DNA of 64,000 bases from Heliocidaris erythrogramma. Its lineage: Eukaryota; Echinodermata; Echinoidea; Camarodonta; Echinometridae. The notes under the pieces are model-generated. The model saw only the letters and a list, made by a program, of their open reading frames with translations. It ran no database searches and was not told where the DNA came from. A program made the position numbers and the translations under genes. The stretch's first letter is position 1, and each line of letters opens with the position of its first letter. The stretch covers positions 27,045,410 to 27,109,409 of the forward strand of contig CM046873.1 of the NCBI GenBank assembly GCA_025617745.1, in the 5' to 3' direction. Below, in pieces: positions 1 to 55,162 of the stretch.

Positions 1-310
1 GGGAGGGGGACCTTTTCGTTTACTAGTTCATGGACTAAATGGGGTTATACGCCTGCAGACGTTAACCCCTCCCCATAATCTCAGGAGAGACTTAGCTTTG
101 AAGCTATCCTGATTTTGGGTTCTGAAAGCAAAGGCTTTACCGAGACCCGGACCAAGGCGCCTAAGAGGAAGCTCAGTCGCAGCGCGGTCATACACCGCTA
201 TACACCGCTATCAATGACGGGAATACCCACAGAAGGAGTCTGTTGCCTGAACAATAAGTTGGGCCCTGACTAGCGGGGGACGACTGGTATGTTTCAGGCA
301 AATATTTTAA

Positions 311-1140
311 CAAGGCAATAGCCTCCGCCCCGCAAAGGGAAGCGATTGAGGCTCTGCCTGTTCCGTCAGAGTCGATTCAGAGATAGTCTGAGAGACCAAT
401 TCAGAATCTGACGCCTGATTAGCATGTGAAAACATGGGATCAGGCAGGTACCCCCATGGGTCACTATCAGTCTCCTCACCCAGCGGAGCCCCAAGGGCCG
501 CATAGGGGGGGGGGGGGGGATTGGGAACAAATGGCCGATCTAAGCCGGGCCGAAGAGTCCCGATATCAGCCCCTGAAGAGGGGTAGAGGCAGGGGCTGCA
601 TTATCAGGTGAGTGAGACAAGCCCTGCCGCTGAACGAAACTCGCATCATGCGGAGTGGCTCAGATTGAGAAGGATCAGAGAGGGAAGCAGCGGGCAATGC
701 CTTGCTTTTCTTAGACCCCTTTAGACAAGGCAGTAGCCTTCGCCCCGCAAAGGGGAAGCGTTTGAGGCTCTGCCTGTTCCGACAAAGTCGATTCAGATAC
801 AGAAATCTGACTGAGAGACAGAATCAAAGTCTGACACTGCCTGATTAGCGTGAGAAATCATGGAATCAGGCGGGTACCCCATGGGTCACTTTAAGTCTCC
901 TCACCTGGTGGAGCCCCAAGGACCGTGGGTGGTGGGCTCAATAGACTCCGGAACAGTCAACGAGGATTGAGAGCATGCGGCTGAACTAAGTCGGGCCGAA
1001 GAGTCCCGGTATCAGATCCCTGAAGAGCAGTAGAGGCTGCGGTATCAGGTGAGAGAGACCACCCCTGCCGCTGAACGAAAACTCGCATCATACTGAGCAG
1101 CTCAGATTGAGAAGGATCAGACGGGGCAGCAGCGGGCAAG
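311..1140. repeat. 415-bp direct tandem duplication
   Basis: Two diverged copies in the same orientation: the first begins at 311 and the second at 726. Both start with CAAGGCA(A/G)TAGCC and share the block around CCGCAAAGG-GGAAGCG, the block GAGGCTCTGCCTGTTCCG, and GGGCCGAAGAGTCCCG. The first copy holds a run of about 14 G near 507-520. On the minus strand the copies lie in a reading frame, so this may be a duplicated piece of a mobile-element ORF. Function unknown. Confidence 0.75.
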
Positions 1141-1718
1141 GCCTTGCTTTTCATAGACCCCTTACTTCTGTCATTCTTCTTAGGCATCTTCTTAGCTGGC
1201 TCAACGGGAGCCGAAGCCGTAGCCCACCTCTTGGGGCGTCTGACAGACTATGGGCGGTTCTCCGAATCAAATTCGGAATCGCGAACCAAAACCCCAATGG
1301 AGGGATGCCAGCCTACCTCTAGGGGAAGGACCCCCGGTTGGTGAGGTTTGTCAGAAGTGCGCTTGGGGTTTGCACCCAAAGCCGCATACACACTGCCCGC
1401 AAACCAAGCGACTTGAGGGTGCGGTCGTGCAAGAGCGGACTGGGACGAAGTCCCAGTATTCGCATGCACACTATCTATGGTATGTGGATGCATTTCTGCT
1501 CCACCTGCGGGCGGAATTAGGCCACCTAATTCTGCGCACTCATGCGACAAGGTCTGGTGCTCCGCAGACCGCCCAGTGTTCTTGGTTCGAGTCTTTTCGT
1601 TAGGCTGGTAAGACAGCCAGGGTCGCACTCGTTCCCCCATAAGGTCGGTAGGACCGGGGCTAGGGTTTGAAAACCCAGACCAACGTGGGCGGTGCCCGTC
1701 CCAGGTCGAAAATCCCAT
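957..1718 (-). pseudogene. Unrecognised ORF fragments, possibly mobile-element derived
   Basis: Two minus-strand open stretches, 1248-1718 (156 codons) and 957-1187 (76 codons), follow one another. The second begins MPKKNDRSKGSMKSKALP, basic then Ser/Pro-rich. The first is Pro/Gly/His-rich. I recognise no catalytic motif or zinc knuckle. The left fragment lies over the 415-bp tandem duplication and the right one runs into the inverted end of the foldback repeat at 1700. A gag-like retroelement ORF is one possibility, but the evidence is only composition and repeat context. Confidence 0.25.
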
Positions 1719-2591
1719 AGAAAAACCAGTAGAAAATTTCTACTGGTTTCTACTGGTCAATTACCTATTGGTTTGTACTGTTTTTTACTGGTCAATATCT
1801 ACTGGTTTGAATATGGAAAGTGGACCCCCTAACCAGTAGAAACCAGTAGAATTATTTTTAATGGCTCCATTAGAAAACCAGTAGAAATCTCTACTGGGAC
1901 CATTACAAACCAGTAGAAAACCAGTATAAGTTTCTACTGGAACCAATAGAAAATAGTAGAAAAACCTACTAGGACCATTCGGAGACCAGAAGGAATCACT
2001 TCTAAAACCATTAGGATTCCAGTAGAAATTTCTAATGGTTTCCAAGAAATTTCTAATGGTTTAAAAGAAATTTCTAATGGTTTCAATAGAAATTTATAAT
2101 GGTATCATCCAGGAATTCTACTGTAAACCTACTAGAACCATTAGGAGACCAGTAGGAATCACTTCTAAAACCATTAGGATTCCAGTAGAAATTTCTAATG
2201 GTTTCAGCCAGGATTTCTACTGGATTCCTACTTATCTCATAATGGTTCCAGTAGAAAATCCTACTGGTCTGCTATTGGTTTCAATACAATTTCCTACTGG
2301 TTCGTAATGTTTTCTACTGGATTGACTTAGTTTTTTAACACCCTGCTGAAACCATTAGGCTTGACTAGTTTCTAATGGTATTTAATGGTCTTCAGAACCA
2401 TTAGACTTTACTGGTTTCTTGTGGTTTGTACTGGTTTGACTTGACCAACTTCCTCAACCAATTGACTCTAATGGCTTTTAACAGTTTTTACTGGTTCACC
2501 AATAGTCTCTACTGGTCTTTAAAAACACAATAGAAACCAGTAGACGGTCACTACTGGTTTCTACTGGTTTCTATGGGAATTTCGACCTGGG
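1700..2591. repeat. Long foldback element built from CCAGTAGAAA / TTTCTACTGG units
   Basis: The ends are near-perfect inverted repeats: CCCAGGTCGAAA then TCCCATAGAAA at 1700-1723, and the reverse complement TTTCTATGGGA then TTTCGACCTGGG ending at 2591. The interior is almost wholly degenerate copies of ACCAGTAGAAA and its complement TTTCTACTGGT, plus a variant with TTTCTAATGG, in both orientations. A transcript of either strand could fold into many alternative hairpins. No transposase and no clear target-site duplication are visible. It resembles a foldback-type non-autonomous DNA element. Confidence 0.8.
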
Positions 2592-2642
2592 GTGAGTTGC
2601 CCTTCAGTACTGGCACGAATCTGCAAATGCGGCTTCGTGCGG

Positions 2643-2993
2643 TTAGGACACGCAATAGGCCGGGAAGCAGACGTCCCTCACCCCTTCTGGTCGAAACGAC
2701 CGGGGGTTAGGATTTACGATACCTAAACCACGAGAGTCTGACGCCACCCTCTCCGAAGCCGCAGGCTTCGAGGTTGGCGTTCTCAGATCGACTAATGCCA
2801 CCCGCCCGGAAGCCACGGGCTCCGAGGTTGGCAATTTCTGCGGGGTAACAACACTGGGCACCTTACCTGCAGCCCTCCTCACCCCCGGGTACCAACGTAC
2901 TAGGGAAGGTCTGGAAGGCCGAGTCATCTTGCTAGACGACTCTTCGGAAGAAGCAGATCTCCGTGACCTAACTGCTTCTTCTTCCGAACTCAT
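2643..2993 (-). pseudogene. Unrecognised Ser/Arg/Pro-rich ORF
   Basis: A 116-codon minus-strand frame opening MSSEEEAVRSRRSASSEESSSK, acidic/Ser-rich and then Pro/Val-rich, containing two similar segments with TSEPVASGRVALVD and TSKPAASERVASD. It stops at 2643, just right of the foldback element, and the fragments at 957-1718 lie on its other side in the same orientation. All may be parts of one decayed mobile-element gene split by the foldback insertion. No domain is recognised, so this is weak. Confidence 0.25.
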
Positions 2994-4418
2994 ATTGCTG
3001 TAATAAAAACAAGCAATAGAATATTATACAAAAATGATAATAATTTGGAAACAGCAGGTAACATTCAACAATTGGAGGATACGCACAATTCAAACAACAA
3101 GCACCAAAACATACAATGAATCGGAGAACACCGTCAAACACCGAAACGTAAACAACGGGATCGGGGCAAACGGAAACACCAGCAAGACACACCGAAATTA
3201 CTACGTAGGGCTAGCCGCCAAAAGGAAAATAAATGCAATAGGCAAAGAGTGATAAAAAACAACAGTAAAATATTCAGAACGAAATTTAGTACAAAAGAGT
3301 GCTCTAAAGGCGCGCTGAAAAGATACAAAAAGACCTGAAATCAGGAGTGCTGTGACACGAAACCTGACTTGACGGGAGCGAGCAAGAAAGAGGCCGTTGC
3401 GCATTCATACGGTTGAGGGAGGAAGGAGATAACAATGAATTAAGGGGGGGGGGGGGGGTTCGCACAATATTGTGACTTATATGTGTAAAAAGTTCTCGAT
3501 TGGGTCGCGTAGTCAAGAGACTAGCAAAATAGGGAGGTATATAAGATTTATTGCAGTAAATAACACATTTAAAAAATCACCCAGGCGCTATAGGACATAG
3601 GAGCGATTTTATAAAAATCTTCTTGAAGACGTTCGGCAAGGAGACCTAGCGACTTTACGAAAATTGCAAATCAAGGAGTTGGACCCTACCAAAAAGAGTA
3701 AGATAAAAGAAAACAGATTAGGAAGGGTTGCGGAAGCAAATTGTGTCATTTCCGCATTCTTTCAGCGCCATACGCGGAAAAAGTGTGTGAATCATCGTTT
3801 CTTGGGACATTACTACGAATTGACTACAGTCATACTTGGGAGTGTCCTAGGAATCAGGAAGTTTGCGAAATGCAAAGCCAGCTGCAAATTGACATAGTGA
3901 TTTCAGGCAATATTCTTCAGTGGTGCATACCCTGGAAACGTAGCTAATTAATGCTAATGTTTCATTGTGAAGCACATTAATTATTCTCTCATCTAATATG
4001 TGTTTCATTGCCAGTAAAATTATAGTCTATTTGCATTTTTCAAGTTGGGGTACTTTAAAAAAATGCATATATACCAATATGTCTTTTTTTCTCTTTAAGG
4101 CTTTTTGGCTGATTTTGATGTTGTGCACTGTCATGTATGTCCAACAAATGTAATATTTTGATTATAGTTCCTTGGATCAGTCGATTGAATTTATTAACTC
4201 TTGAGGTACATGATTTTACATGAAATAGGTAAGATAGTCTAATAAAAATCTTATAAAATATTTGAATATCCAATATAATTTCCAATATGTACTGACATTT
4301 TGGCTTTAATGTAAAAACGAATTATAGTTCATCAATACCAAAAACTTACTTCAACAGGATATAATCAAGAAATTAATGTTAGCAATTCAAAAGAGATAGC
4401 ATAATTATTTGACATTAC
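2994..4418. other. No gene recognised
   Basis: AT-rich sequence with a G run near 3447-3460 and only short unsupported reading frames on either strand. If the NACHT gene continues, its next exon should lie here or further left, but I could not find a leucine-rich-repeat exon or a convincing acceptor. Confidence 0.5.
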
Positions 4419-5980
4419 CAGTTCCTTCCGATGCTCCATAATAAACAGGTGACCTGATACTGTGTGTGCTGAAATGTATTCACTCAACTGAAGTTCGCTA
4501 TTGGTGGTATCGAGGTGTTTGGCCACTGCCTTGGCTATTGATATGTATTGACTCTCATACGCCACATTAACGATAACAGTCTCTTCTGATCCATTCACTA
4601 TGAGACCTGTTACGATATCAAAGCCAAGCTTCTCCTCTTGAGCAGAGATGAAGTACAGGAGATATTGATATTCTGATGCCTTTTGCATGATGTCAGCCAT
4701 CAACTTATCATATTCCATGGGATCTGAGCGATGGAGTGATACTAGATACATAGCCGAGAGGTATTCCTGAAACAACTTGTGCGGAAACTGCACCGTGTAT
4801 GCTTCTAATTGGGGATTTCTTTGTCTTTCTCGTCTTCGTCTTGCAAGCTTATCTCTTGTTAGCACACCAACTTCACAACCCATCTCTTTAGACTCTTCAC
4901 ATGACTGAAAAGTGTCTTCTGGGAATACAAGACGTCTCTCCAACAGTCCATGAAAAGCATTCTTTCCAATCAGTGTTAGATGATTGGAAACAGTTTGGCG
5001 TTGTTTATCCACAGTTTGATCAAACTTCCCCTTTTCTAAGTAGTGATCAATCAGAAAGTCAATCATCTCCTCAAACAGCTGGGAAAAGGTGTTAAGTTTG
5101 GACATTGCTTGCCGCCTCTCCCCATCACATTCCTTCCACATGATACACAGCATAGCGGTGTATATGGGAAAGGGCGCCATATTCTCTCTGATGACATCAT
5201 TGTCGGCAATGAAATGTATTAGTTCTTCTGATGACTTGGCGTCTTGTTTGAAGAACTTTGAGATGTACCGAGACTGGTTTTCTGCTGAGAACCCTTCAAC
5301 GGCAATGGATGCATAGACTTTCTTGAGATCAGAGTTACCCCATATCGTATTGAGTTTCCATTGCCTTGTGGTGATTAGAACTGTGCCAGACTTGAATACC
5401 TTATAAAGAATGATCTGAACAAATTGGTTAAGACCGGAGAAATCTCCATCAAACTCATCAAGTCCATCAAGAACCATGAATACATCCTTGGGATTGCTTA
5501 TGATGTACTCATCTATTTGCCTTGCTTGGACAGGATTGCTATCAGAAAGATAAGTTTTGACAATCTCACCGACGGTCTTGTCCTTAGCTTTGCGGAGGAG
5601 TATTACAACAACAAGCTTGCATTGCTGGAGTGTTCTCTCTTCAGCCCAATCCAGTGCTATCTTAGCACACAAAGTCGTCTTTCCAGTTCCACCTTCCCCT
5701 ACTACTATGAGGCGCCTCGCCTTGAGACCACGGATTTTTACATTGTAGAGTTCACTATAGGACAGTGGAGTCTTGTTTTTATCAGTAACACCCATGTTTT
5801 CTTCTACTTCAAGCAAACTCAGATCTGTGAAGATACGGCCAAGTTCAACAAGAACGTCACTGTCTAGTGGGCCTGGTTGAACAACACATAACTCAAGAAG
5901 GTAGTAGCGTTTGATCTCGTCGACAACTAGATCTAATAAATCATCAGTTATTGGCGGCGAGCGACCTTGAACAGGGGAAC
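4419..5980 (-). CDS. NLR-like gene, exon 4: NACHT NTPase domain
   Basis: The largest exon of a four-exon model. It carries a NACHT-family NTPase, the nucleotide-dependent oligomerisation module of NLR innate immune receptors. Walker A is GEGGTGKTT (codons at 5673-5699, about residue 451 of the model), Walker B is VFMVLDGLDEF (about 523-533), and a sensor-like TVLITTR follows. Further on, FPHKLFQEYLSAMYL fits the winged-helix/superhelical region typical of NLRs. The acceptor is CATTTTCAG at 5981-5989 and the donor is CTG|GTAATG at 4418. The frame is open through the acceptor, and its first two bases complete the Gly codon split by the donor of the Death-domain exon. The exon ends in phase 0, so the protein should continue, classically into LRRs, but none are visible. 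Cytosolic location is inferred from the family. Confidence 0.9.
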
Positions 5981-7699: not shown

Positions 7700-8602
7700 C
7701 TAGAGAGAGAGAGAGAGAGCCGGGGAGTACAGGGGAAAGGGAGTAGAAAAGAAATAGAGAGATGAGAGGAAAGGAAACAAAGAGAGCTGCATGGCTTTGC
7801 ACTTAGCAGCATTAGGAACAACATCGTTGTCTTCGCACCACTGTATCAAGGCGTCTATATTAGACTGCAACTGGGAAGATTGCGATTTCTTCAGAACCTC
7901 CACGAGAGTCAAGTCATCCACATATTTCCACCTATTAGCACAATCAGCAGAAGCATCGTTGACCAAGGCCAGGAACAAAATCGGTCCGAGTCGCGTACCT
8001 TGGGGCACACCACATGTGATGGTATCTTCTTGTGAGGATTTCCCATGGTAGCGAACAGTTTGCGTTCTGTTGGAAAGGAAGCTACAGATGGTAGGGATGA
8101 TTGCACCATTAACACCTAAATCGATCAGCTTGTTGATCACGATCGTATCAAGTAGGCTGACCAAATAGTGCGTAACTGAAGATCCACGAAGATTACCAAA
8201 CTGACGATGGTCAACTAACGGGCGGATACTATTCAAGATCCAGTCCGCAAGGAAACCTTCGAAGATACGTGCTAAGGTTGGTGTAATGGAGATAGGCCGG
8301 AGTTGGTCATAGCTGGTAACTGGGTTAGTTTTGGGAATAGCACTAATAGATGCATTTTTCCAAATGTCTGGGAAGCAACCCTCACTGAGGCAAAGATTGA
8401 AGAGAGTGGTCAAAGGTTCAGCAAACTCAAAGGCAAACTCCTTCAACAAGCGCGAAGGGGGGTCACAAGAATGACAAGCCTTAGTAGTGCTGATTCGACA
8501 GAGACGCTTATAAACTTCCCGTCGGAGGCGGCGAGGGTGCTGGCAGGAAAGCTGGCAGAGCATCCAGGGAGAGTGGAGGTAAAGAAGAGCAGATAGCAGC
8601 AA
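7700..8602 (-). pseudogene. Non-LTR reverse transcriptase, broken
   Basis: This frame contains RT hallmarks: SYDQLRPISITPTLARIFE (fingers), TCGVPQGTRLGPILFLALVND (palm motif B region) and the catalytic box KYVDDLTLVE (codons around 7905-7935). The segment between SLLDT and INKLIDLG lacks residues expected in an intact palm, and the thumb is replaced by Leu/Ser-rich low-complexity sequence, so the domain is internally deleted and C-terminally truncated. It follows the endonuclease remnants on the same strand. Confidence 0.85.
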
Positions 8603-9164
8603 AATGTCTGTTCAACTCGTTGGCAATGTCAAAGTCAGATTTGTCATCAGATGCGAGATCAAGCTGCTTCTTGCGGATACCAGCAAGGTGACGGATTTGC
8701 TGGTGCCACTTCCCAGGCTCAGATCTTTTCAAGTGTTCCACTTTGCGATCATAGAACGACAGCTTAGCCTTAACAATCAACCTCTGAACATGGTTCCTCA
8801 ATCGTTTGAAGTCTGGATGCCCATGTCGAAAGGAGATATCGCGATGATTGATAGCTCTGCGAATCTCATCGTTCATCCATGGCTCATCATTCAGCCGTCG
8901 TTTAACAGTAACAAGTTCGAAGTGTTGTCTAAACTTGAGGTTAATCAAGTTATTGAACTCCGAAGCCATGTCATGAAGGAAGGACAGACCAGTCCATCTG
9001 CTGAATCCACTGCCCAAAACTCCGAATGGAGGAATCGCGAAAAGGGCGATATGATGATCTAGTTGCTTTCCTGGGAGGCGGCGGGGCAGTAGGACTGACA
9101 GTGACGACATTGTGATCGCTAGAAGATATTGGCGAAGAGATCTGAGGGTCCTCATAAACCTCAT
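8508..9164 (-). pseudogene. Non-LTR ORF2 linker between endonuclease and RT, broken
   Basis: A 218-codon frame containing RRLNDEPWMNDEIRRAINHR and ..KWHQQIRHLAG, the lysine/arginine-rich linker typical between the APE endonuclease and RT of CR1/L2-like ORF2 proteins. It overlaps the RT frame at 8508-8602 in a different frame, indicating a frameshift. It has no catalytic residues of its own. Confidence 0.75.
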
Positions 9165-9641
9165 TAAGGTCAGTCAGTATTTTATCCAGGATAGCTAACT
9201 CACGAGTAGGTTTGTTGACTATTTGGGATAACGAGCAGTGTCTTTCAATTTCAATGGTTTCCAGGTCATTGAAATCGCCCATGATGATCAGAGAGGCATT
9301 AGTAGACTGAAGACGAGCACGGTCAACCATGCTTATGATATGCTCAGTCATTTCCGCTTGGTGTGGTGACCGCGGGGGAGAATAAATCACACACGCAAAA
9401 ATGTCTCGAGCTAGATGCACAGTGGGAGAAGATCGTAGAAGGACCCATAGTACTTCAAGATGCGGGGCACTAAATCACTGAAGATCTCTCTGCAGTTCAT
9501 ATCGTCTCGCACGTAGAGGGCCACACCGCCACCTTTTTGTCCTCTGCGGTCCTTATGGAAGACACGATAAGATGGTAAGGAACATGCAGAAACTGGAGTA
9601 GAATCTGAGAACCAAGTTTCTGTGATTGCAATCAGGTGCAT
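8971..9641 (-). pseudogene. APE-type endonuclease of the non-LTR element, broken
   Basis: Two overlapping frames. The first (9411-9641) reads HLIAITETWFSD, containing the metal-binding Glu of the TETW motif, then GGGVALYVRDD. The second (8971-9420) holds MGDFND (catalytic Asp/Asn) and SSDHNVV (catalytic Asp-His). Order and spacing match an exonuclease-endonuclease-phosphatase-fold APE domain that nicks the target for target-primed reverse transcription. The frame change near 9411-9420 disables it. Confidence 0.85.
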
Positions 9642-12139: not shown

Positions 12140-12450
12140 CAGGTTTGTTCTTTGGCAAGAAGTTATCTACAATACGCACGAGTCCAGCTTTCAGTAGTGC
12201 CTCCCTCAGGTTGGGAAGTTCATCTCTCTGTTTCTGCTTCTTACGCCAATCTCGAAGCATCTTCAATGTACCATCGAAAGTCACATTTTGATAGTGGTGA
12301 TTTGTCTCGATGTAACGATGAATATCCGATGGTTGAAAACCCAGAGCCGTACCAATATTATCAATATCTGAGTTATCTGCAACTCCTCCAGCAACTTTCT
12401 TCAAGATGTCATCAAAGTCAACCACATACTCAGTGGAGGCACTGTCTGGC
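12140..12450 (-). CDS. NLR-like gene, exon 3: Death-fold domain
   Basis: This exon encodes about 104 residues, from PDSASTEYVVDFDDILKK through IDNIGTALGFQPSDIHRYIE to LREALLKAGLVRIVDNFLP, with the helix pattern of a Death domain, the adaptor-recruiting module at the N-terminus of many invertebrate NLRs. The acceptor is ATTATCTGCAG (AG at 12451-12452) and the donor is CCTG|GTGGGTA at 12139. Its single leading base completes the Ser codon left in phase 2 by exon 2, and its last base (phase 1) is completed by GT at the start of the NACHT exon. The order 2A - Death - NACHT is thus kept in one frame. Assignment to Death rather than another Death-fold class (CARD, DED) is by residue pattern only. 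Confidence 0.8.
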
Positions 12451-12503: not shown

Positions 12504-13797
12504 TTTATGCCTCTGCCCTTGCCAGATCAGAAATATATCGCACATCCATGTTTTAAATTTTGATTGAACCAGAAAAAAGCCTATAATTACATGTTAATTG
12601 ACCTCTTTGACATTTGACCTTACGTACCTTATAACCCAAAAGTCTAATCACTTTATCTCCTCTAGTCATGAATACAAAATAGTTGAGATATGGTGATAAC
12701 AAGGTAAAACAAGATGAATGCGACTGCGACTCCTATATGCCTCCGCCTAAATTCAGTTGATGGCTCAAACTGCTCTTGAAATATTGTGATAACCAGAATA
12801 AAAGCCTCTAATTACATGTTAACTGACCTCTTTGACATTTGACCTTACACCTTATAACCCAACTTATCTCCTCCTAGTCATGAATACAAATTAGTTGACA
12901 TACACATGTATGGAGATAACAATGTAAAACTACCCCAAAATCTAATCAGTTCCTCTTTCTATGGGGACACATGTACATACTGGTACCAAGTTTGAAGTTC
13001 TTACCTCAAACAGTTCTTCAGAAAACGTGGTAACGGTGCTAAAATCCAAGAATTTCATGTAATTTCATGTAAATTGACCTCTGTGACCTCCTTACCCAAA
13101 ATCTAATCAGTTCATCTTCGTATGGGGATATATACTAGTACCAAGTTTGAAGTTCTCACCTCAGATAGTTCTTGAGATATCGCGGTAACGGTGCTAAAAA
13201 CCAGTAATTCCATGTAATTTCATGTAAATTGACCTCTGTGACCTCTGAACTTTGACCTACATGTACCTACCCCAAAATCTAATCAGTTCATCTTCGTATA
13301 GGGATACATACTAGTACCAAGTTTGAAGTTCTTACCTCAAACAGTTCTTGAGATATCAAGGTAACGGTGCTAAAAACCAGTAATTTCATGTAATTTCATG
13401 TAAATTGACCTCTGTGACCTCTGAACTTTGACCTACATGTACCTACCCCAAAATCTAATCAGTTCATCTTCGTATAGGGATACATACTAGTACCAAGTTT
13501 GAAGTTCTTACCTCAAACAGTTCTTGAGATATCAAGGTAACGGTGCTAAAAACCAGTAATTTCATATAATTTCATGTAAATTGACCTCTGTGACCTCTGA
13601 CCTTTGACCTACTTACCCCAAAATCTAATCAGTTCATCTTCGTATGGGGATACATACTAGTACCAAGTTTGAGGTTCCTATCCCAAATGATTCTTCAGAT
13701 ATCGCGGTAACGAGAAGTGGGACGGACGGACGGGCGGACGGACAAGCCGAAAAAGTTAATGCCTCCGGCACCCACCTTCGGTGGGCGGAGGCATAAA
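12504..13797. mobile_element. MITE-like element with internal ~175-bp minisatellite
   Basis: The ends are inverted: TTTATGCCTCTGCC at 12504 and GGCGGAGGCATAAA ending at 13797, the latter also in a local hairpin CCACCTTCGGTGGG. Inside, a block containing AAATCTAATCAGTTC, TACTAGTACCAAGTTTGA and TAAATTGACCTCTGTGACC repeats with spacing of about 161, 176, 176 and 170 bp (12937-13620). A GGAC-rich run (about 13720-13745) precedes the right end. No coding capacity. It sits in the intron just upstream of the Death exon. Confidence 0.75.
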
Positions 13798-14210: not shown

Positions 14211-15017
14211 TTTATGCCTCCGCCATCACCAGATTGGAAATGTATGGAATACATGTACACTTTAAAAAGGATTGGTCCAACAAAATTACAAATCTTTTCA
14301 CTTAAAAAACACAGGAGACAGAAAATTTATTTCAAATCATTTTCATCCCGTACAAATAAAAAACTTACCATTGATGACTTACAATCATCAAATACATCAA
14401 GGAAATAGATATTTTATAGCAAATAGACCACTGTCCCCTTGAAATTTCTAAAATTGGTAGGCCTATAGGTAGAGTCCATAGATCACAAACCATTTTTATG
14501 TATATAATGACCTCTATGACCTTTGAACTTTGACCTTGAGACCCTAAAATCTAATCCGTTCATCGTCCCTCACATATGCATACATGGGCCAAGTTAGAGG
14601 TTGATCCGTCAAACAGTTCTGAAGTTATTGCGAGAACGAACCATTTTTATGTACATATTACAATGTACCTATGTGACCTTTGACCTTGAGACCCTAAAAT
14701 CTAATCAGTTCATCGTCCCTCACATATGCATACATGGGCCAAGTTAGAAGCTGATCTGTCACACAGTTCTGAAGTTATTGCGAGAACGAACCATTTTTAT
14801 GTACATAATTACCTCTGTGACCTTTGACCTTTGACCTTGAGACCCCAAAATCAAATCAGTTCATCGTCCCTCCCATATGCATACATGGGCCAAGTTACAA
14901 ACTGATCAAAAAACAGTTTTGAAGTTATCGCGAGAACGAAAAGGGGATGGACGGACGGACAGACGACCCGAAAACATATTGATTCCGGCTACCACCTACG
15001 GTGGGCGGAGGCATAAA
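14211..15017. mobile_element. Second MITE-like element of the same family, ~152-bp internal repeat
   Basis: It starts TTTATGCCTCCGCC at 14211 and ends GGCGGAGGCATAAA at 15017, preceded by CCACCTACGGTGGG and a GGAC-rich run, exactly as in the element at 12504-13797. Its internal unit (TGACCTTTGACCTTGAGACC, then TCAGTTCATCGTCCCTC, then ATGCATACATGGGCCAAG) recurs about every 152 bp around 14544, 14695 and 14847. Internal repeats of the two elements are related but distinct. Confidence 0.75.
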
Positions 15018-15088: not shown

Positions 15089-15243
15089 GAGTGTTTTCGT
15101 TTAGGACCTGGATTGCTCTCCACATCCCCACACCTTAGAAGGAGGAGTTCCATGGTGTCCGGTTTTGCAATATCTGCAATGACTTCATTATCATCCATAG
15201 ATTCTTCACCGTGTGTCGATTTCTGGAGCTTTTGGCCTTGTAC
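15089..15243 (-). CDS. NLR-like gene, exon 2: linker carrying a 2A peptide
   Basis: A 155-bp exon. The acceptor is TTATAACAG (AG at 15244-15245) and the donor CACTC|GTGAGT (GT at 15087-15088) is a strong consensus. In the frame entered from exon 1 (phase 0) it reads VQGQKLQKSTHGEES.. then MELLLLRCGDVESNPGP and KRKH. It leaves in phase 2, completed by the first base of the Death exon. Reading on without splicing meets a TGA at once, so the donor is needed for the frame. The other two frames do not connect to both neighbours. Confidence 0.85.
15103..15153 (-). other. 2A translational-recoding (ribosome-skipping) peptide
   Basis: MELLLLRCGDVESNPGP ends in DVESNPGP, a perfect match to the D(V/I)ExNPGP consensus that makes the ribosome skip the Gly-Pro bond. 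Skipping would occur between Gly (GGT, 15106-15108) and the final Pro (CCT, 15103-15105). The Leu-rich stretch and the Gly before Asp also match active 2A contexts. In the four-exon model it would release a 247-residue upstream product and a separate Pro-initiated Death-NACHT protein. 2A-like sequences are published in sea urchin NLR (CATERPILLER) genes and in non-LTR retrotransposons. Activity of this copy is inferred. Confidence 0.88.
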
Positions 15244-15553: not shown

Positions 15554-16172
15554 ATTTTCCACGAGTGTCTCGAAATCAGGGTCTGTGCCACTTTTGTTGA
15601 TGTTGGTAGGCTTATTTGGTGAAGGGCGGCTAGAATCATGTCCGGAACCCTTTCCTACAGAAATTCTGGGCGAGTTGGAGGGAGAAGCAGGATCAAGGTA
15701 TCCTTGTTTGTGGTCACTTGTGACGTCACATGATGAGCTGACATCCGTAGGCTGTACCGTATGGCTATCATTTTGAGGAGCAGCGGTATGTTTGCACCCT
15801 TCTGAATCAGGTTGGCTGCGAGGCGTTGAACCACTCTGCCCTGTCTCACACTTTGAACTTCCTTCATCAGATGCTGCACATGTTGCCTTGGTCTCTCCAT
15901 TTCTCAGTCCCTTACTAGCTGCTCCACTACCGTCATCACCAGAGAACTTTGCTTCCCCACTGAAGTTGGATTGAGAACCCGAGTTGGCATTATCAGTAGA
16001 GTTGGAATCACCAGAACTACTGCCTTTGGTCTCACATGTCTCAGCATTGGAAGAAGTTTTATGTATGACATGGACAAGTTCAATATCAGATGGTTCCTGC
16101 TGCCAATGTACGAACCTGCCGATCCGAACACGCCACTCACCAGTTGATATCGGCATGATGATATCCCTTCAC
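15554..16172 (-). CDS. NLR-like gene, exon 1 (first coding exon): Ser/Gly/Asn-rich N-terminal segment
   Basis: The acceptor GCTTACAG (AG at 16173-16174) precedes 16 untranslated bases and the ATG at 16154-16156, so an upstream 5' UTR exon is implied. The 201 coding codons begin MPISTGEWRVRIGRFVHW, a short ordered-looking segment, then become low-complexity (Ser, Gly, Asn, Asp, Thr), ending ..DPDFETLVEN. The donor is GAAAAT|GTAAAG at 15553. It exits in phase 0 and joins exon 2 in frame. No signal peptide or recognised domain. Because the 2A motif follows 46 residues later, this segment could be made as a separate 247-residue polypeptide. Function unknown. Confidence 0.75.
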
Positions 16173-20527: not shown

Positions 20528-20677
20528 TATTTTCCATTGTAGCAGAGCTAACAGAAGCATGTTTCAGATTCCTTTAAGTACTGATGCGAATCAGTAAAAG
20601 GAATTGCCCGGGCGTGTGCAACCAAACAAGGTTGCCTTTCACTGACCAGTTCGACAGCACACACGCCGGACGGCTTA
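20528..20677 (+). repeat. Split direct repeat A1 of the Ngaro/PAT element
   Basis: 150 bp, starting TATTTTCCATTGTAGCAGAG and ending CCGGACGGCTTA, identical by eye to A2 at 27881-28030. It contains a 6-bp hairpin with a GCGA tetraloop (20580-20595), a CAACC/GGTTG hairpin (20619-20634), and an outer pairing between CCGGGCGTGTG (from about 20608) and CACACACGCCGG (20658-20669). Confidence 0.9.
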
Positions 20678-20691
20678 ATTACTCCGCTGCA

Positions 20692-21106
20692 ATGTCTACA
20701 TACGAAAATCCTCAGGAAAATGAGTTAGCGGCGCCACACCAGCCACCGCCCCAAAACCCGGGGCTGACTACGGCGTTTGTGTCGACCGCAATTAAGGAGG
20801 CATTCAGCTCATTTAAAGATTATTTTGACTCTTCTCTGGCGAAAGTTAAAGAAGACAACGACAAGGGGCTATCTGCAGCCTCTTCGGAGCTCTCACAGCT
20901 AAAAAGAGCGGCGGATCTTACTTTCAGGTTCAAGGGCAACAAGATGCAATTCGACTTCAATTCGTCTATTATTGAGACAATTGAAAAGGGCGTCGCACTT
21001 CTAGAGGCTGACAAGAAACCAGCCGGTTTGGCAAAGTTTTCCGAATGCATTGCGGAGGTCAAAAAGAGAAACAAATTGATTAGACTTGCAGACAAGTCTG
21101 ACGCAG
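20692..21106 (+). pseudogene. gag-like ORF, first exon
   Basis: From ATG at 20692 it reads MSTYENPQENELAAPHQPPP and includes LKRAADLTFRFKGNKMQFDF, the conserved core of DIRS/PAT/Ngaro gag-like proteins. An in-frame upstream ATG at 20584 lies within A1, so a longer start is possible. The frame reaches a stop soon after GAC GCA G|GTGAGT at 21106/21107, a consensus donor. Splicing to 21307 restores the frame (see intron). Confidence 0.8.
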
Positions 21107-21306
21107 GTGAGTGAGATTAATTGTCATGTAGTTTTTCTGTCGATAGTTTGGATACGTGGGTTTGGCGTCAAAAAATTTATCCACATTGTTACAAGACGTT
21201 GGTCCCCTTTTAATCTTGGTTTGTCAGGAGAGAAACTGCGCTGAGTTATATTGTTGCCGCACAGCGAATGCTTATTATTGTACATTAACTTCACCCTAAA
21301 TTATAG
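21107..21306 (+). other. Probable spliceosomal intron within gag
   Basis: A 200-bp segment with donor GTGAGT and acceptor TAAATTATAG. Removing it joins a split Gly codon (G|GT) and continues in frame into GWSAVEEYLSDELASDSEDE, the next conserved gag block. Reading straight through instead hits a stop directly after the donor. Introns have been reported in some tyrosine-recombinase retrotransposons. Splicing here is inferred. Confidence 0.7.
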
Positions 21307-21687
21307 GTTGGTCAGCGGTTGAAGAATATCTCAGTGATGAGCTTGCTAGTGATTCAGAGGATGAGAAGCGAATCAGACAGGCCCAGGCACGTGCTTCCAG
21401 GAAGCGGAAATCGGGTAAAACATCCTTCAAAAGCAAGGCCCCCAAGGCAGAGGCGTTTTCTCATTCGCCTATGCCTTCCGATAATTATTTTTCGTGGGCC
21501 TGGCGGCAAGTATAGGCAGCCGCTTAGGATTGGTGCCGGACCACACCCAACATGGCGGCCAATGGGTGGCCCCAGAACCACCGACGTATGTTTTGCCTGT
21601 GGGAAGCAGGGACATTGGAGACGAGGTTGCCCAGGCGTCAGCAACTACAGCCAGTCTAGCAGAGACAACGCCTCACAACAGCGTTAG
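21307..21687 (+). pseudogene. gag-like ORF, second exon with CCHC zinc knuckle
   Basis: It starts with WSAVEEYLSDELASDSEDE, acidic, then a basic tract (RKRKSGKTSFKSK). The zinc knuckle CFACGKQGHWRRGC (C-x2-C-x4-H-x4-C) at about 21587-21630 is in a different frame, so a frameshift near 21490-21510 breaks the protein. The knuckle is expected to bind nucleic acid in the particle. Confidence 0.85.
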
Positions 21688-22061
21688 AGGTAGTTCTTGG
21701 GTTATGGTTAACCAATCTGAAATTAGATGTAAATAGATTCCTCCTTTACACAAGTTGCGCCTAGAGCACTTGCTTTTAAACGGGGTTGGCGCCATACAAA
21801 TTCATATCATTATAGTATTACACCTTCCCTTGTTAGTTCTGTTGAGCTAAATATAAATATAATCATGATTTCGAAGGATTGATTGGTTTAGAGAATGAGG
21901 TGGTTCGTCCTGGAATAACGAGTTGGTCTTCCTACTGTTACGCAGGTAATGGCACAATCATGTTCTTCAATAATTGAAGTAAGATGTTATACAATGTATG
22001 AGTACATGTATCTCCTTGAGTGATAAACAAGAGCTGCTATTAAAGCAAGAATATTCCATTT

Positions 22062-23009
22062 ATGTATATAGCATATACGAACACAGCGCATGGAGATGTG
22101 GCGGAAACGAGGACTACAACACAGTCTGCATGGGAGAGTGGCATCATTGGTACAACATCGGTAACCAGCTCTATGTCACTGGACTGTATGCATCATGTAG
22201 AGTCAAACCCTACGGTACCCGAGTCTTGCAGTATTGCAGCAGCTAACACAGGGTACGATCAAGATTTTTTCATTCAGAATTATTTTGATTATGAGCAAGG
22301 TACCTCAGAACCAATAGTAAGAGGCAGAATGAAGACATGTATTCAATTTTGGAAAGATATCGGTGCTTGCAAATGTACATTAGATGTTATTGAACATGGC
22401 TATAAGCTGCCACTTTTACAGACTCCTCCTAGGAACATACTGAAAAACAACAAATCTGCTCTTTCTCACTCTGATTTTGTAAAAGAAGCAATCAATGATT
22501 TACTCAGTAAGAACCTGATTATGGAATCTATCAACGCACCACACATCGTTAATCCTCTTACGGTGTCAGTCCAAAATTCAGGGAAAAAGAGACTGATTTT
22601 AGATCTACGATTTGTGAATGGGTTCTTATGGAAAGATAAAATCAAATTCGAAGATTGGAATACAGCCCTAACGTATTTTAAACAAGGTGATTTCATGTTT
22701 TCCTTTGATTTAAAGTCAGGGTATCATCACATCGAGATATTTCAAGAACATACTAGCTTCTTGGGTTTCAGTTGGGAAATTGACAACCAGACCAGATATT
22801 TTACGTTTCAAGTCCTACCTTTTGGCTTGTCTACTGCCCCGTATGTATTTACAAAATGTCTAAAACACATTGTGAATTATTGGAGAAGAATAGGTCTGTT
22901 TATTGTCTTGTATTTGGATGACGGTTGGGGTCGCACAGACTCGTTTGATAAGTGTGAAGTTATTGCTCTGGCAGTGAAAAGATCTCTTGAAAGCTGGGTT
23001 GGTGCCTAA
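22062..23009 (+). pseudogene. Ngaro/PAT reverse transcriptase
   Basis: A 315-codon frame with RT motifs in order: KKRLILDLRFVNGF, FSFDLKSGYHHIEI (catalytic Asp), LPFGLSTAPYVFTKCLK, and VLYLDDGWGRT, the YxDD catalytic box with Leu as in DIRS-type RTs (near 22905-22935). Only the part from about 22250 looks like RT. A frameshift near 22985-23010 separates it from the thumb/connection segment, which continues as FEKSQWVPVQKLDWLGLTWD in another frame and meets a stop at 23101. Confidence 0.9.
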
Positions 23010-23106
23010 TTTCGAAAAATCGCAATGGGTTCCAGTACAAAAGTTGGACTGGCTAGGTCTGACGTGGGACAGTAATTTAGGTTCCCTTAAGGTAACTGAG
23101 TGAAGA

Positions 23107-23860
23107 GTGAAGGACGTTGAGTTATGTCTGGAGATATTCCTAGCAAGTTTGCCTCGAGTTTCGGCACGCAAGATTGCAACTATTGCCGGAAAGATAAATT
23201 CGTTCTACCCAGTTGTAGGTGGCATAAGTCAATTGAAAACCAGATTCATGCATCATGAAATAATTCGTAGGGCTCATTGGGATAATGTATACAACATCAG
23301 TAGTGATAATGAGCTCATTGCGGAGGTGTTTTTCTGGAAAAATAATCTACGCATTCTGAACGAACGTAGTATAATTGAATATTCAATTCCCCAGGTTATT
23401 ATATTTTCGGACGCGAGTCACACAGGGTGCGGAGCATACGTTAGTGAGCAGCCTGGGTTAAATATGGTAAGAAATTGGTTGGATACCGAAATGCAGAAAA
23501 GCTCCACTTGGAAGGAACTTAAGTCAGTATGTTTAGCATTGAAAACATTTGTTTCCAAGTTACAGGGTAAGGTCACAAAGATTTTCACTGATAACAAGGG
23601 TGTCGTTTCTATTGTATCCAAAGGTAGCATGATTGCAGAGTTGCATAATCTTAGTTTGGAAATCTACACCTTTTGCAGGGATAATCATATAACCCTACAA
23701 ATTCATTGGGTTCCTAGAGAGGAGAACATGCACGCAGACGCATTAAGTCGTATCATTGACTTTGATGACTGGGGAGTCTCCCCTGAGTTCTTCCAATTCA
23801 TGGAAAGATTGTGGGGGCCACACACCGTTGATAGATTTGCTGACGAATTCAATCACAAAC
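23107..23860 (+). pseudogene. Ngaro/PAT RNase H domain, N-terminal part
   Basis: The frame contains RNase H acidic residues in order: VIIFSDASHTGCGAY (Asp), STWKELKSVCLALKTF (Glu), KIFTDNKGVVSIVSKGS (Asp) and VPREENMHADALSR (final Asp). It is followed by FDDWGVSPEFF and WGPHTVDRFADEFN, a stretch typical of DIRS-type polyproteins. It is cut at 23861 by the 2-kb hairpin-ended element and resumes at 25912. Confidence 0.9.
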
Positions 23861-23865
23861 TAGAA

Positions 23866-25911
23866 TTTAATTCGTCATGAGGACGAATTAGGTGGTCTGT
23901 CTTTCAATTTGTATGATCATGATTGTAATCAGGATGATCATAATGCTAGACTGAAGATACATGTAGGAAGTCAAGAATGCCACGCATGGAGATGCTTCTT
24001 GAGGACAGGAATGTAGAAAAATGTGTGAAACGGTCATTGGAAGATGTGATGATGTTGATGATAATCATCATCATGAATATCATGACAGTGATGATAATGA
24101 TGTTGATGATAATAATCATGATGATGATCATTATATCCTGACAGTGATGATAATGAGGAGGAGGATGATGGTGATAATTGTGATGACCATGACTGGAATG
24201 ACATTGACCTTAACTATGCCAAATATGAAACAGAAATGACATTTCGTTACGAAGGTACGACCATAAGTTGATTTGTAGAAAATGGCGCGTAGAAGACGTC
24301 ACAATAATCTGAGGACCTTGAAAAAGATGCGGGAACTTAACCTTATTAGGACTGATGACTAACGAAAATTTTAAGATAATTGACTGAGCCAATTTTGATA
24401 AATTTTCCATAGGGTTATACATAAACCACTGCACAGTAATTTCCAATAGACATAACACGCAAAATAAGGCAGTTTATTACTTGGTTTGTGATTGCTTATG
24501 TTATAATAGTCGAACAAGATGGTAAAATGAAAGGCAAAAAGAAGCAAAAAAAAAAAAAAAAAAATTTAATGGACCCACCGGGGATCGAACCTGGGTCACC
24601 GGAGTGAGAGGCAAGTGCTTTGACCAATATACCAAAACATTTCCCATAGAGATAACACGTGAACGAAAAACGGGATTCTCAAATCACATTTTGTAGTGAA
24701 AAATTGGGCATGATCCCGACATCTGATCAAAAATTGGAGACAACACTTGTAAAAGCTTATAGTCTCAGCTATAACATACTAAAATCTGGAAGAAAATAGA
24801 CCAAAAACAACTGAGATACAGCTCAGAGAACAATGTCATGTAGATTCACGATTCGAAAAAAAATCATCTTCCATAGACATAACACGCAAATAGGGAAAAT
24901 TCTGACATGGCATCTTTAATTGAAATTTTCACTGTGATGACGTCATCAAAATGAAAAGTGGTGAAGACTGATTTTGTAGGAAATTGCCTCAGCTACAACA
25001 TATTAAAATCTGGGCGAGAAACGACTAATAATTACGAATCTAGAGCAAAATTTGCATAAATGTGATGACGTCAAAACATGAAAAATGGAAATTTTGAATT
25101 CTGGCGCCATTTTGATGACGTCATAACGTTTATAAGGGTCAAATGATACATGAAATAAAATCTATGATTCATACCCTACCCGATGATGAAAAAAAATTTG
25201 GGGGTTTATGGACTACTTAAAGAGCTAGAGTTAATTTTGTAGAGGCATGTTTTTGCACGTTTTTACGTTATTTTCGCCATAGATGCGCGCACGGATTTTG
25301 AACTTTGACGCGCCCGTACGACCTTATTATTGATTGAAATTGATTCCAAGTTGATGGAAATGATGAAGAAAAGTGTCAGGATTGCAAATCAATCGAAAAA
25401 ACAGCGTTTTAACGTTATTTACGACTTGCGGGCGCGTAAAACGCGCGCGCGGACGCTTACGCACGGACATTTTTGAAATGCTCAAAATGACCTGAAACGT
25501 GTGCAGACTTGATCCTACGTGATTTTGAGCATTTTTAAATTTTGACGCGCGCGTACGCGCACGTCTTGACCTCTAGATGACCTGTGAGGACATGACTTGA
25601 TGACCCGTCATGTGAAGTTTATGTGATGTAAATATGGTTGATTTTTGATGATCGATTATGAAGATATAATCGATCTTGAAAATTTACAAAATGGCGTCTT
25701 GATGACGTCACGATGACATGATGACCTCCAAAAGCTTAATGGATCATGTCCATGATTGACCTCATACATGACATGAAACTCGAGGATAGTGACCTGGCCG
25801 ATTTTGAGATATGGTGGCCACAAGAATTTGTTATAAAAAGAAAGAAATAAAAAGAAGAAAAATCTTGACAAAATTAAAAGGTGATCTGTCGATACCGACA
25901 GACCACCTAAT
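23866..25911. mobile_element. 2-kb hairpin-ended non-autonomous element, solo copy A
   Basis: It is flanked by TAGAA at 23861-23865 and 25912-25916, a possible 5-bp target duplication or shared microhomology. The left end carries TAATTCGTC-ATGAG-GACGAATTA, a perfect 9-bp stem (23868-23890), followed by ATTAGGTGGTCTGTC. The right end is a 12-bp hairpin with arms GGTGATCTGTCG / CGACAGACCACC (25880-25907), and its last 15 bases are the inverse of the left ATTAGGTGGTCTGTC. Inside are a GAT/ATC microsatellite (24046-24190), a tRNA-like module and TGACGTCA octamers at 24938, 25066, 25116 and 25703. It has no ORF of its own. Subterminal inverted repeat, terminal hairpin and internal microsatellite recall non-autonomous Helentron-like elements, but that class is not proven. 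Confidence 0.75.
24570..24639 (-). ncRNA. tRNA-like Pol III module, copy A
   Basis: On the minus strand: a tRNA-like sequence with A-box-like TATATTGGTCAAAGC, an anticodon-loop-like CTCTCAC, and a B box GGTTCGATCCC inside a T-arm, followed within a few bases by a T run of more than 15, a strong Pol III terminator. The anticodon arm and 3' half are nearest tRNA-Glu (CTC) by eye. The acceptor stem does not close well, so it is tRNA-derived rather than a working tRNA gene. Confidence 0.65.
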
Positions 25912-28230: not shown

Positions 28231-28380
28231 GCCGTGCAGTCGAAGCTTGGTGCTCCCCTAAATACAGGTATGTGTTATTAACCATGATTATGTTCTCTTT
28301 CAGGTCATGCTGTAAGTTAGGGAGGCGGTATTGAAAATCATTTATTCAAGGTTGAGGAACGAATTAGTGAATAAATATAT
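28231..28380 (+). repeat. Split direct repeat B2 and right end of the Ngaro/PAT element
   Basis: Copy of B1. After ATAAATATATTT the sequence becomes the RT ORF of the interrupted non-LTR element. The exact border is uncertain by a few bases because element end and target share an AT-rich stretch. Confidence 0.9.
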
Positions 28381-29992
28381 TTACTTTAGTCCTAACATCC
28401 ACATTTCTTGCATTGAATACCATAATATTTTTGCTTTCATAGTTCAATTTCAATTTATTTGCCCTTATCCATGTACTCACTTTCTTCAATTCAAAATTAA
28501 ATTCTCGGGTCAAACAATCCACATCCCTATGTTTATAAAACATGTTTGTGTTATCAGCAAATAACAAGTAATGTAACTTGGGGGAAACCAAAGATAAATC
28601 ATTAATGTATATTAAAAATAAAAGAGGGCCTAAGATTGACCCTTGCGGTACCCCACAGGTGACTGTGTGTTGACAAGAATTTTGATAATTAAACACAGTA
28701 TACTGTCTCCTATTAAATAAATACCTCCTAAATAAATCAAGAACAATACCCCGTATTCCATAATAATACAATTTAGCAAATAATATTTCATGATTTAATG
28801 AATCAAATGCTTTTTGAAAATCCAGAAAAAGACCAACAATAATTTCTTAGCTTTGGAGACATGAATTAAAAACTGCAATAGGGTATATGAGAAGTTGAAT
28901 GCATGGCCCGGAAACCATATTGATTGTGACATAATACATCATTTTTATGCAAGAAATTAATAAGGCGTTTGTATATACATTTTTCAAAAACTTTAGAAAA
29001 GACTGGCAATAGTGATATTGGTCTGTAATTAGAGAAACTATCTTTAGAACCCTTCTTATGTATAGGGATAATTTTGGCCAATTTAAACTCAATAGGAACA
29101 ATTCCTTGTTGCAAACAAGTGCTAAATATAATGCATAATGGTTTAGATATCAGATGAACAATCTTTTTTACTACATTAATATTTACATCATCAAAACCAG
29201 GTGCTTTGCCAATCTTGAAAGACAAGACATATTCAATAATCTCCTTTTCACTAATTGGATTAAAATAGGCAGGCCTATTTACAAAATTACCTGTAAGATA
29301 TGAAGAAAAATTCACATTATCATTACTATTGATAGAATTATCATTTGCAATAGTGTGGCCAATGTCTTTAAAATAATTATTAAAACCTTCAGCAATTTCC
29401 ATAGAATCAGTCATCATTATACCATTATTATTGAATGCAATTGACACATCATTTTCCTTTTTCATATGTAAAGCTTCCTTAATAATTTTCCAAGTCTTAT
29501 TCATATTACCTTTATACCCTAAAAATTTTGAATTGTAATATTGCTTTTTGGCATGCTTTACTTCTTTATTATATTTATTTCTACATTTTAAATACTCATC
29601 CTTGTTATGTTTAGAACGATTCGTAAGATACTTTTTATGCAATTTATCTTTTCTTGAACGTAATTTTTTTCAATCCTTTAGTATACCACGGTTTATAGCA
29701 CAATTTAATTTTACATTTTTTTAAATGGGAAAACATGTATTGTACCTTTCTAAGAATACATTTATGAATCTTTTATACATAATATCAGGATCAGTATGAC
29801 ATTGAGATACATGTTCAAAATTGACACTTTCCAATGAAGAATAGAACAAGGCAATATTTACATCATTAATATCATGTTTATAAATTACAGTCTCATCATT
29901 ACTAAAACCCACAAAATCAAAGATAGCATAAATTGGTAAATGATCTGCAATATCACATGTCATTATGCCAGATGTAGAATATGAAATAGAAC
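28381..29992 (-). mobile_element. Non-LTR retrotransposon copy 2, 5' part (endonuclease end, linker, RT)
   Basis: Minus strand. 29721-29963 holds the end of the APE endonuclease (CDIADHLPIYAIFDF; the Asp-His pair). 28866-29642 holds the linker and RT fingers (KIGKAPGFDDVNINVVKK, IIPIHKKGSKDSFSNYRPIS). 28381-28771 holds RT palm TCGVPQGSILGPLLFLIYIND and LLFADNTNMF. The usual FADD box reads FADN here, losing one catalytic Asp, and there are frameshifts. The right end is cut at about 29993 by the first unit of the 2-kb array. The RT C-terminus is at 19955-20527. Confidence 0.88.
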
Positions 29993-32038
29993 TAGAGTTT
30001 AATTCGTCATGAGGACGAATTAGGTGGTCTGTCTTTCAATTTGCATGATCATGATTGTAATCAGGGTGATCATAATGCTAGACTGAAGATACATGTACGA
30101 AGTCAAGAATGCCACGCATGGAGATGCTTCTTGAGGACAGGAATGTAGAAAAATGTGTGAAACGGTCATTGGAAGATGTGATGATGTTGATGATAATCAT
30201 CATGAATATCATGACAGTGATGATGATAATGATGTTGATGATAATCATGATGATGATCATTATATCATGACAGTGATGATGATAATGAGGAGGATGACGA
30301 TGGTGATAATTGTGATGACCATGACTGGAATGACATTGACCTTAACTATGCCAAATATTAAACAGAAATGACATTTCGTTATGAAGATACGACCAAAAGT
30401 TGATTCGTAGAAAATGGCGCGTAGATGACGTCACAATAATCTGAGGACCTTGAAAAAGATGCGGGAACTTGACCTTATTAGGACTGATGACTAACGAAAA
30501 TTTTAAGATAATTGACTGAGCCAATTTTGATAAATTGTGATATCAAATAGGACTAATGATATTGCAGGATAGCTTAAATACACGTCGTAGGGAATCAGAT
30601 TTTCCATAGGGTTATACAAAAACCACCGCGCAGTACTTTCCAATAGACAACACACAAAATAAGGCAGTTTAGTACATGGTTTGTGATTGTATATGATATA
30701 ATTGTCGAACAAGATGGTAAAATGAAAGGCAAAAAGAAGCAAAAAAAAAAAATTTAATGGACCCACCGGGGATCGAACCTGGGTCACCGGAGTGAGAGGC
30801 AAGTGCTTTGACCAATATACCAAAATATTTCCCATAGAGATAACACGTAAACGAAAAACGGGATTCTCAAATCACATTTTGTAGTGAAAAATTGGGCATG
30901 ATCCCGACATCTGATCAAAAATTGGAGGGCTTACTAATAAAAGCTTATAGTCTCAGCTATAACATACTAAAATCTGGAAGAAAATGGACCAAAAACAACT
31001 GAGATACAGCTCAGAGAACAATGTCATGTAGATTCATGATTCGAAAAAAAAAATCATCTTCCATAGACATAACACGCAAATAGGGAAAATTCTGACATGG
31101 CATCTTTCATTGAAAATTTCACTGTGATGACGTCATCAAAATGAAAAATGGTGGGGATTGATTTTGTAGCAAATTGCCTCAGCTACAACATATTAAAATC
31201 TGGGTGAAAAACAACCAATAATTACGAATCTAGAGCCAAATTTGCATAAATGTGATGACGTCAAAACATGCAAAATGGAAATTTTGACTTCTGGCGCCAT
31301 TTTGATGACGTCATAATGTTTATAAGGGTCAAATGATACATGAAATGAAATATATGATTCATACCCTACCTGATGATGAAAAAAAAATTGGGGGTTTGTG
31401 GACTATTTAAAGAGCTATAGTTAATTTTGTAGAGGCATGTTTTTGCACGTTTTTACGTTATTTTCGCCATAGACGCGCACACGGATTTTGAACTTTGACG
31501 CGCCCGTACGACCTTATTATTGATTGAAATTGATTCCAAGTTGATGGAACTGATGAAGAAATGTGTCAGGATTGCAAATCAATCGAAAAAACAGCGTTTT
31601 AACGTTATTTACGACTTGCGCACGCGTAAAACGCGCGCGCGGACGCTTACGCACGGACATTTTTGAAATGCTCAAAATGACCTGAAACGTGTGCAGACTT
31701 GATCCTACGTGATTTTGAGCATTTTAAAATTTTGACGCGCGCGTACGCGCACGTCCTGACCTCTAGATGACCTGTGATGACATGACTTGATGACCCGTCA
31801 TGTGAAGTTTATGTGATGTGAATATAGTTGATTTTTGATGATCGATTACGAAAATATAATCGATCTTGTAAATTTACAAAATGGAGTCTTGATGACGTCA
31901 CGATGACCTGATGACCTTCAAAAGCTTAGTTGACCATGTCCATGATTGACCTCATACATGACATGAAACTCGATGATATTGACCTGGCCGATTTTGAGAT
32001 TTGGTGGGAACAACATTTTGTAATAAAAAGAAATAAAC
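29993..32038. repeat. 2-kb array unit B
   Basis: First unit of a direct tandem array of the family seen as copy A. It starts TAGAGTTTAATTCGTC with the same 8-9-bp stem and GGTGGTCTGTC, has a GAT microsatellite at 30178-30330, the tRNA-like module, and TGACGTCA at about 30424, 31127, 31258, 31304 and 31895. It runs straight into the next unit (..AGAAATAAACTAGAATTT) without the 3' hairpin found in copies A and F. About 2046 bp. Its left border cuts the endonuclease of non-LTR copy 2. Confidence 0.85.
30758..30827 (-). ncRNA. tRNA-like Pol III module, unit B
   Basis: Same module as in copy A: B box GGTTCGATCCC, CTCTCAC loop-like segment and A-box-like TATATTGGTCAAAGC on the minus strand, followed by a T run of about 11. 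It keeps the same place in the unit. Confidence 0.65.
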
Positions 32039-42458: not shown

Positions 42459-42714
42459 ATTTGAAGAATGAAAATATGTCTGATTTGGCCTTAAATATTC
42501 CTGTCCTGACAAAACAGGCAATGCATATACAGTCAAACCTGCTTTAGCGACCACCTGTATAGAAAGACCACAATTTTTGTTTCCCTTGAAAAACGTTTCT
42601 CATTGATATGTGTATCAAAGGAACCTTCCATAAAGACGGCCTGCTCCTAAAGACCACTTTTCTTGTCTCCCTTGAGTGGTCTTTATAGACAGGTTTCACT
42701 GTACTATGACTTAC

Positions 42715-55160: not shown

Positions 55161-55162
55161 AT

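Follow-up and report, generated by a model that had tools for sequence, protein, structure and literature searches.

Short 2A or StopGo sequences carry the motif D(V/I)ExNPGP; given a suitable context upstream, this motif keeps the Gly-Pro bond from being made although translation continues (PMC4981915 and PMC12846837). Cellular coding sequences are said to contain StopGo only very rarely (PMC12846837). The closest described system is that of the SpNLR2A genes of the sea urchin Strongylocentrotus purpuratus (Roulston et al. 2016, PMC4981915). About 35% of the NLRs in that species (85/241) carry a 2A that lies either at the N-terminus or within the N-terminal region, and a later count found a 26-residue N-terminal 2A in 14 of 87 NCBI entries, with 12 of the 14 being predicted signal sequences. 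For SpNLR2A, skipping leads to a cytosolic downstream protein, and failure to skip leads into the exocytic pathway. The 2A chosen for study, SpNLR2A6, had an activity of 80%, given as a qualitative estimate. Its skipping was substantially reduced by R11A, L13V/A, and L14G/D and less so by D25A, L21V, and L21D, while L21G, L21A, and L16V/G/D changed it little or not at all (PMC4981915). This numbering runs from the last Pro, as deduced from the statement in the same paper that P3A gives NAG. Among the motifs defined in PMC12846837, motifs 1, 3, 4, and 6 were each represented by a single tested sequence, and all four supported StopGo; the level was about 92.7% for motif 3 and approached 100% for motifs 1 and 4.

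We analyzed a minus-strand gene in a 64,000-nucleotide stretch of Heliocidaris erythrogramma DNA, here called the window. A first-pass annotation had placed a 2A motif in an NLR-like gene of the window and named 2A sequences in sea urchin NLR genes as the precedent. That precedent is real (PMC4981915), and the window gene belongs to a rare kind that is already known and whose principle has been published. Like the SpNLR2A genes, it is a Death and NACHT NLR in which D(V/I)ExNPGP lies near the N-terminus. Judged from the published description, the two differ in layout: the 14 SpNLR2A sequences analyzed in that paper have a 26-residue N-terminal 2A, whereas the window motif follows up to 231 leader residues with no long hydrophobic stretch. 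Judged by hydropathy, the combination that goes with dual targeting in SpNLR2A (a 26-residue N-terminal 2A and a predicted signal sequence) is absent from the window gene, with its motif at residues 232-248. The long-leader layout may be a variant, and “within the N-terminal region” in PMC4981915 may already cover it. Among the matches listed in a search that covered few subscription papers, no title or abstract opening described an NLR in which a 2A follows a long leader. Given this coverage, and since PMC4981915 places some NLR 2As within the N-terminal region, priority for this layout cannot be claimed.

The 2A motif and its exon

On the minus strand, positions 15126-15103 encode DVESNPGP, a perfect D(V/I)ExNPGP, and MELLLLRCGDVESNPGP, which contains it, is the exact translation of 15153-15103 (Table 1). 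A scan of all six frames found this to be the only NPGP in the window, and a first-order Markov model puts the chance expectation for D(V/I)ExNPGP at 5.5e-5 per window. The earlier claim of a perfect 2A motif in frame within an NLR-like gene was borne out. DVESNPGP fits the StopGo core (D/G/C/N)(V/I)ExNPGP, and the upstream context, about six residues in the exit tunnel, would be supplied by LLLRCG, a fit judged by eye only. With its terminal CG, a D at p12, and an S at p15, this hexamer resembles, again by eye, the L-rich motifs 2 and 6 of PMC12846837. Those motifs belong to viral polyproteins, whereas the window motif lies in a cellular receptor gene. Counted back from the last Pro, the window motif has R11, L13, L14, Glu 16, Lys 21, and Ala 25. 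It thus shares R11, L13, and L14 with SpNLR2A6 and differs from it at position 25 (Ala in place of Asp) and position 21 (Lys in place of Leu). Only four leucines precede R11. Judging from these residues, skipping is likely.

Table 1. Features of the proposed gene, in window coordinates
Feature	Coordinates	Strand	Remarks
Exon 1	15554..16172	minus	201 codons from ATG 16156, with 18.4% Ser; acceptor at 16172; would encode most of the first product's leader
Exon 2 (2A exon)	15089..15243	minus	155 bp; entry phase 0, exit phase 2; GT-AG; in-frame stops at most 1 codon from both borders
2A/StopGo element MELLLLRCGDVESNPG^P	15103..15153	minus	Residues 232-248 of the gene model; skip predicted at the Gly 247/Pro 248 junction
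Alternative start codon	15151..15153	minus	ACCATGG context; first codon of the 17-codon motif
Exon 3, Death domain	12140..12450	minus	PF00531, 23.7 bits (cut-off, 22.6), E 5.4e-5, exon scored alone
Exon 4, NACHT	4365..5980	minus	PF05729; to its own stop codon or to possible donor 4419

The motif lies in a reading frame that opens at 15246 and extends no further than a stop codon starting at 15087, and exon 2 (15243-15089) fills this open frame. A TAA followed by CAG lies just before the exon; at the other end the split codon TCG is followed by a TGA that is part of the donor GTGAGT. Splice sites were scored with a generic textbook consensus matrix typed from recall, and the resulting ranks, given per strand (3570 GTs and 3189 AGs), are rough. 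Within the open stretch, 15243 is the only fair-scoring acceptor before the motif (score of 5.3, phase 0). The next one, 15173, scores 2.48 and has another phase, and the only positive-scoring donor, 15089, leaves two bases. An AG at 15133, inside the motif, has a score of 8.98, a consequence of the leucine codons; splicing there would cut the motif. The first-pass annotation had described the borders of exon 2 as strong. This was overstated, as both are moderate (donor 15089, rank 131/3570; acceptor 15243, rank 280/3189). Its splice phases of 0, 2, and 1 were correct when the joined reading frame was checked. A GT-AG exon with one credible acceptor in phase 0 and one credible donor, both matching the neighboring exons, counts in support of the exon.

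Codon usage also speaks for exon 2. Its usage is coding-like, at percentile 99.7 of 2385 windows and best in the proposed frame, under a model whose training set comprised just 640 codons, from the gene's own Death and NACHT exons, and whose null windows include those same exons. A motif arising by chance in an intron, with no functional exon around it, would agree with splice sites of only moderate strength, and a phase match at two borders would be expected by chance in about 1 in 9 cases. What speaks against such an accident is the low expected count, an exon that fits its own frame between stops and splice sites with coding-like usage, and the precedent in the same gene family (PMC4981915). 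We rejected this explanation as very improbable.

The Death-NACHT receptor, its leader, and the start codon

The NACHT assignment, one of the features expected of an NLR, is secure: PF05729 matched with an E value of 3e-21 and 76.4 bits against a cut-off of 26.7. A sequence search of the PDB with the NACHT returned 40 distinct sequences up to E 1, with NLRP3 chains best at E 2e-7 and with NAIP (named Baculoviral IAP repeat-containing protein 1e) and NLRC4 also among the matches. The Death exon exceeds the PF00531 cut-off of 22.6 bits when scored alone but reaches only 19.2 bits within the longer protein. Its best single-sequence structure model has six helices and a mean pLDDT of 69.3 (five models ran from 44.1 to 69.3). 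Foldseek with this model listed 70 entries with E values up to 10, all of them above 0.001; ranks 1 to 21 were all death-domain entries with a probability of 1.00 (best E, 0.046), and among the best 50 of the 70, CARD and unrelated helical proteins also appeared below rank 29. Phmmer of the exon against the PDB gave six sequences up to E 10, all chance matches (best E, 0.39). Taken together, the profile match and the predicted fold support the Death assignment and, with it, the N-terminal death fold of an NLR. The Death-NACHT, NLR-like gene of the first-pass annotation thus stands.

Downstream of the NACHT, a regular expression found two isolated LRR-like matches (3077 and 2177) in 1-4419 of the minus strand and no repeat array. 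Inspection of the open reading frame list by eye together with this expression gave no convincing LRR in the remaining 4.4 kb of the window, and the gene may end at 4365 or run past the window. The 1.44 kb examined for polyadenylation signals (AATAAA/ATTAAA) contains three (4310, 4195, and 3552), where about two would be expected at the strand rate of 1.5 per kb; these signals are thus no evidence for a gene end.

Joining 16156-15554, 15243-15089, 12450-12140, and 5980-4365 in phases 0, 0, 2, and 1 gives a frame that is open for 894 codons. The four-exon frame of 877 codons proposed earlier is indeed a single open frame, but that length needs the possible donor at 4419 (rank 171/3570), and the stop at 4365 gives 894. 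We infer that these exons are spliced together. Several of the sites are among the top 1.5% of the strand: acceptors 16172 (rank 21/3189), 12450 (rank 32/3189), and 5980 (rank 42/3189) and donor 12140 (rank 38/3570), of which the last three are the strong borders of the Death and NACHT exons. Donor 15554, at the end of exon 1, is weak (rank 556/3570) and forms the least secure part of the gene model; donor 15758, which is also in phase, has a marginally higher score (3.59 versus 3.43). The end of exon 1 is therefore uncertain; use of 15758 would make the leader 68 residues shorter. Exon 1 also contains a very strong donor at 16141 on the minus strand, CTGGTGAGT (rank 5/3570), which leaves 16 bases from ATG 16156 and would remove most of the leader.

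The leader itself matched no Pfam family up to E 1 in the first 253 residues. Residues 1-230 contain 17% Ser and are probably disordered. When IMG/VR was scanned for sequences related to the leader and 2A together, a pattern matched 11 stretches, none of which was confirmed. No Rfam match reached the gathering thresholds. Under the same codon model as for exon 2, exon 1 lies at percentile 99.6 of 1286 equal-length windows and is best in the proposed frame (0.161 versus 0.085 bits per codon for the second-best). Since the second-best frame is not far behind, we consider this support moderate.

Three frame-0 ATGs precede the NPGP, and the choice among them would determine the first product. With ATG 16156 and splicing of 15554 to 15243, it would have 247 residues; with ATG 15153, it would have 16. 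Only ATG 15153 has both a purine at −3 and a G at +4, and ATG 16156 has only the −3 purine (A). The 2A might therefore be effectively N-terminal: translation, or a separate 5′ exon, would start at ATG 15153, and the first product would be the 16-residue peptide MELLLLRCGDVESNPG. This would be the published SpNLR2A layout in short form, with the Ser-rich exon belonging to another transcript form or being noncoding. Besides its start context, the weakness of donor 15554, the far stronger donor within exon 1, and the 26-residue 2A at the very N-terminus of 14 S. purpuratus NLRs (PMC4981915) argue for it. On the other side, a stop-free run of at least 238 codons arose in none of 60 simulated windows, exon 1 is coding-like and joins in phase 0, and ATG 16156 comes first and has its −3 A. 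The motif would also be N-terminal at a length of just 17 residues, short of the published 26. We regard a start at the motif as somewhat unlikely.

The long leader is favored over the short one, given that exon 1 has an open frame with coding-like usage and joins in phase. The first-pass annotation had gone further and proposed a 247-residue Ser-rich first product. Frame and phase allow such a length, but the weak donor 15554, the slightly better in-phase donor 15758, and the ACCATGG start that opens the motif make it tentative. Its overall reading held for a 2A/StopGo-type motif in its own exon and in frame with Death-NACHT.

Retroelements and a possible ancestry of the 2A exon

Odon et al. 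are said to have described, in 2013, 2A sequences in APE-type non-LTR retrotransposons. The start of the leader, MPISTGEWRVRIG, presumably resembles the open reading frames of non-LTR retrotransposons. The leader and 2A exons could accordingly derive from the N-terminal part of such an open reading frame, captured as the 5′ exons of an NLR. APE-type elements share the same skip motif and occur in animal genomes (citations in PMC12846837 and PMC11512398), and 2A motifs in non-LTR retrotransposons are also mentioned in PMC4981915. They differ in what lies downstream of the 2A, which is an endonuclease and reverse transcriptase in these elements and Death-NACHT in the window gene. Pieces of a reverse transcriptase and of an endonuclease below its cut-off, on the strand of the gene and in the intron before the NACHT exon, would suit a capture. 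No endonuclease or reverse transcriptase, however, follows the motif in frame: read along the genome, the frame ends at the stop at 15087, and read through the splice junction it continues into Death. The window also holds no NPGP outside exon 2 and no copy of exon 1 or 2 elsewhere. We consider a capture unlikely, and it would in any case be compatible, as ancestry, with a host NLR gene that uses the motif. A 2A retrotransposon open reading frame that reads on into endonuclease and reverse transcriptase was rejected for the present gene on the same two grounds, the stop at 15087 and the joined frame into Death.

The pieces in the Death-NACHT intron form a broken non-LTR retrotransposon at 7700-9474 on the minus strand, with a reverse transcriptase above the Pfam cut-off, an endonuclease below it, and no NPGP. 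The intron after the 2A exon contains tandem repeat arrays at 12934-13712 and 14488-14940, with units of about 150-176 bases; the two arrays are about 67% alike. Another retroelement lies at 20578-23880 on the plus strand, where reverse transcriptase and RNase H are above the Pfam cut-offs and a CCHC zinc knuckle is below; its open reading frame at 20578-21114 had no match. A reverse transcriptase split across two open reading frames occupies 28364-29669 on the minus strand. The region 30456-38758 consists of long tandem repeats, each unit being about 2 kb (30524-34077 and 32537-36064 are 96.4% identical, and 32186-32587 and 34182-34583 are identical at 402/402 bases). A run of 500 Ns at 41359-41858 is probably an assembly gap. 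Beyond it, 42704-61121 on the minus strand contains open reading frames resembling exons of a neighboring gene; of the four that were scanned, those at 43856-44329 and 60621-61121 matched fibronectin type III (PF00041) and the other two had no match.

Proposed translation and its meaning

The motif, frame, phases, and domains that we observed in the window point to a host NLR-type gene (Death-NACHT) that probably carries its StopGo/2A element in a dedicated small exon. In the model that we propose for this gene, the ribosome would reach ...LLLLRCGDVESNPG, and the nascent chain in the exit tunnel would keep the Gly-Pro bond from forming. Release of a first product with Gly 247 at its end would follow, and translation would resume from Pro 248. 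A separate Death-NACHT receptor would then start with PKRKHS, and a minority of the fusion would be left unskipped. By analogy with the described 2A sequences, we expect skipping to be efficient but incomplete.

A switch of secretion by a signal sequence, as in SpNLR2A, is not favored, since the sequence before the motif has no hydrophobic core of the kind found in signal sequences. Its core has four Leu, and the highest 15-residue mean hydropathy in residues 1-276 of the model is 0.89. The most likely purpose is to separate the receptor from the leader, which would be produced alongside it as a protein in its own right; an on/off switch for secretion is less likely. The receptor N-terminus PKRKHS (15089-15105 on the minus strand, spliced to 12450) is one that we take to resemble a nuclear-import signal. 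As a tentative extension, StopGo might act here as a true two-protein operon, in which a 247-residue Ser-rich, probably disordered leader and the Death-NACHT receptor would be made from a single frame in near equal amounts. The fresh N-terminus PKRKHS could then send the skipped receptor and the fusion to different places without a secretion signal. If true, such an operon would add another way in which receptors use StopGo to the secretory/cytosolic switch already published. A second layout in a receptor gene, with a long non-signal leader, would suggest that animals co-produce two proteins by StopGo, beyond the split between secretion and cytosol.
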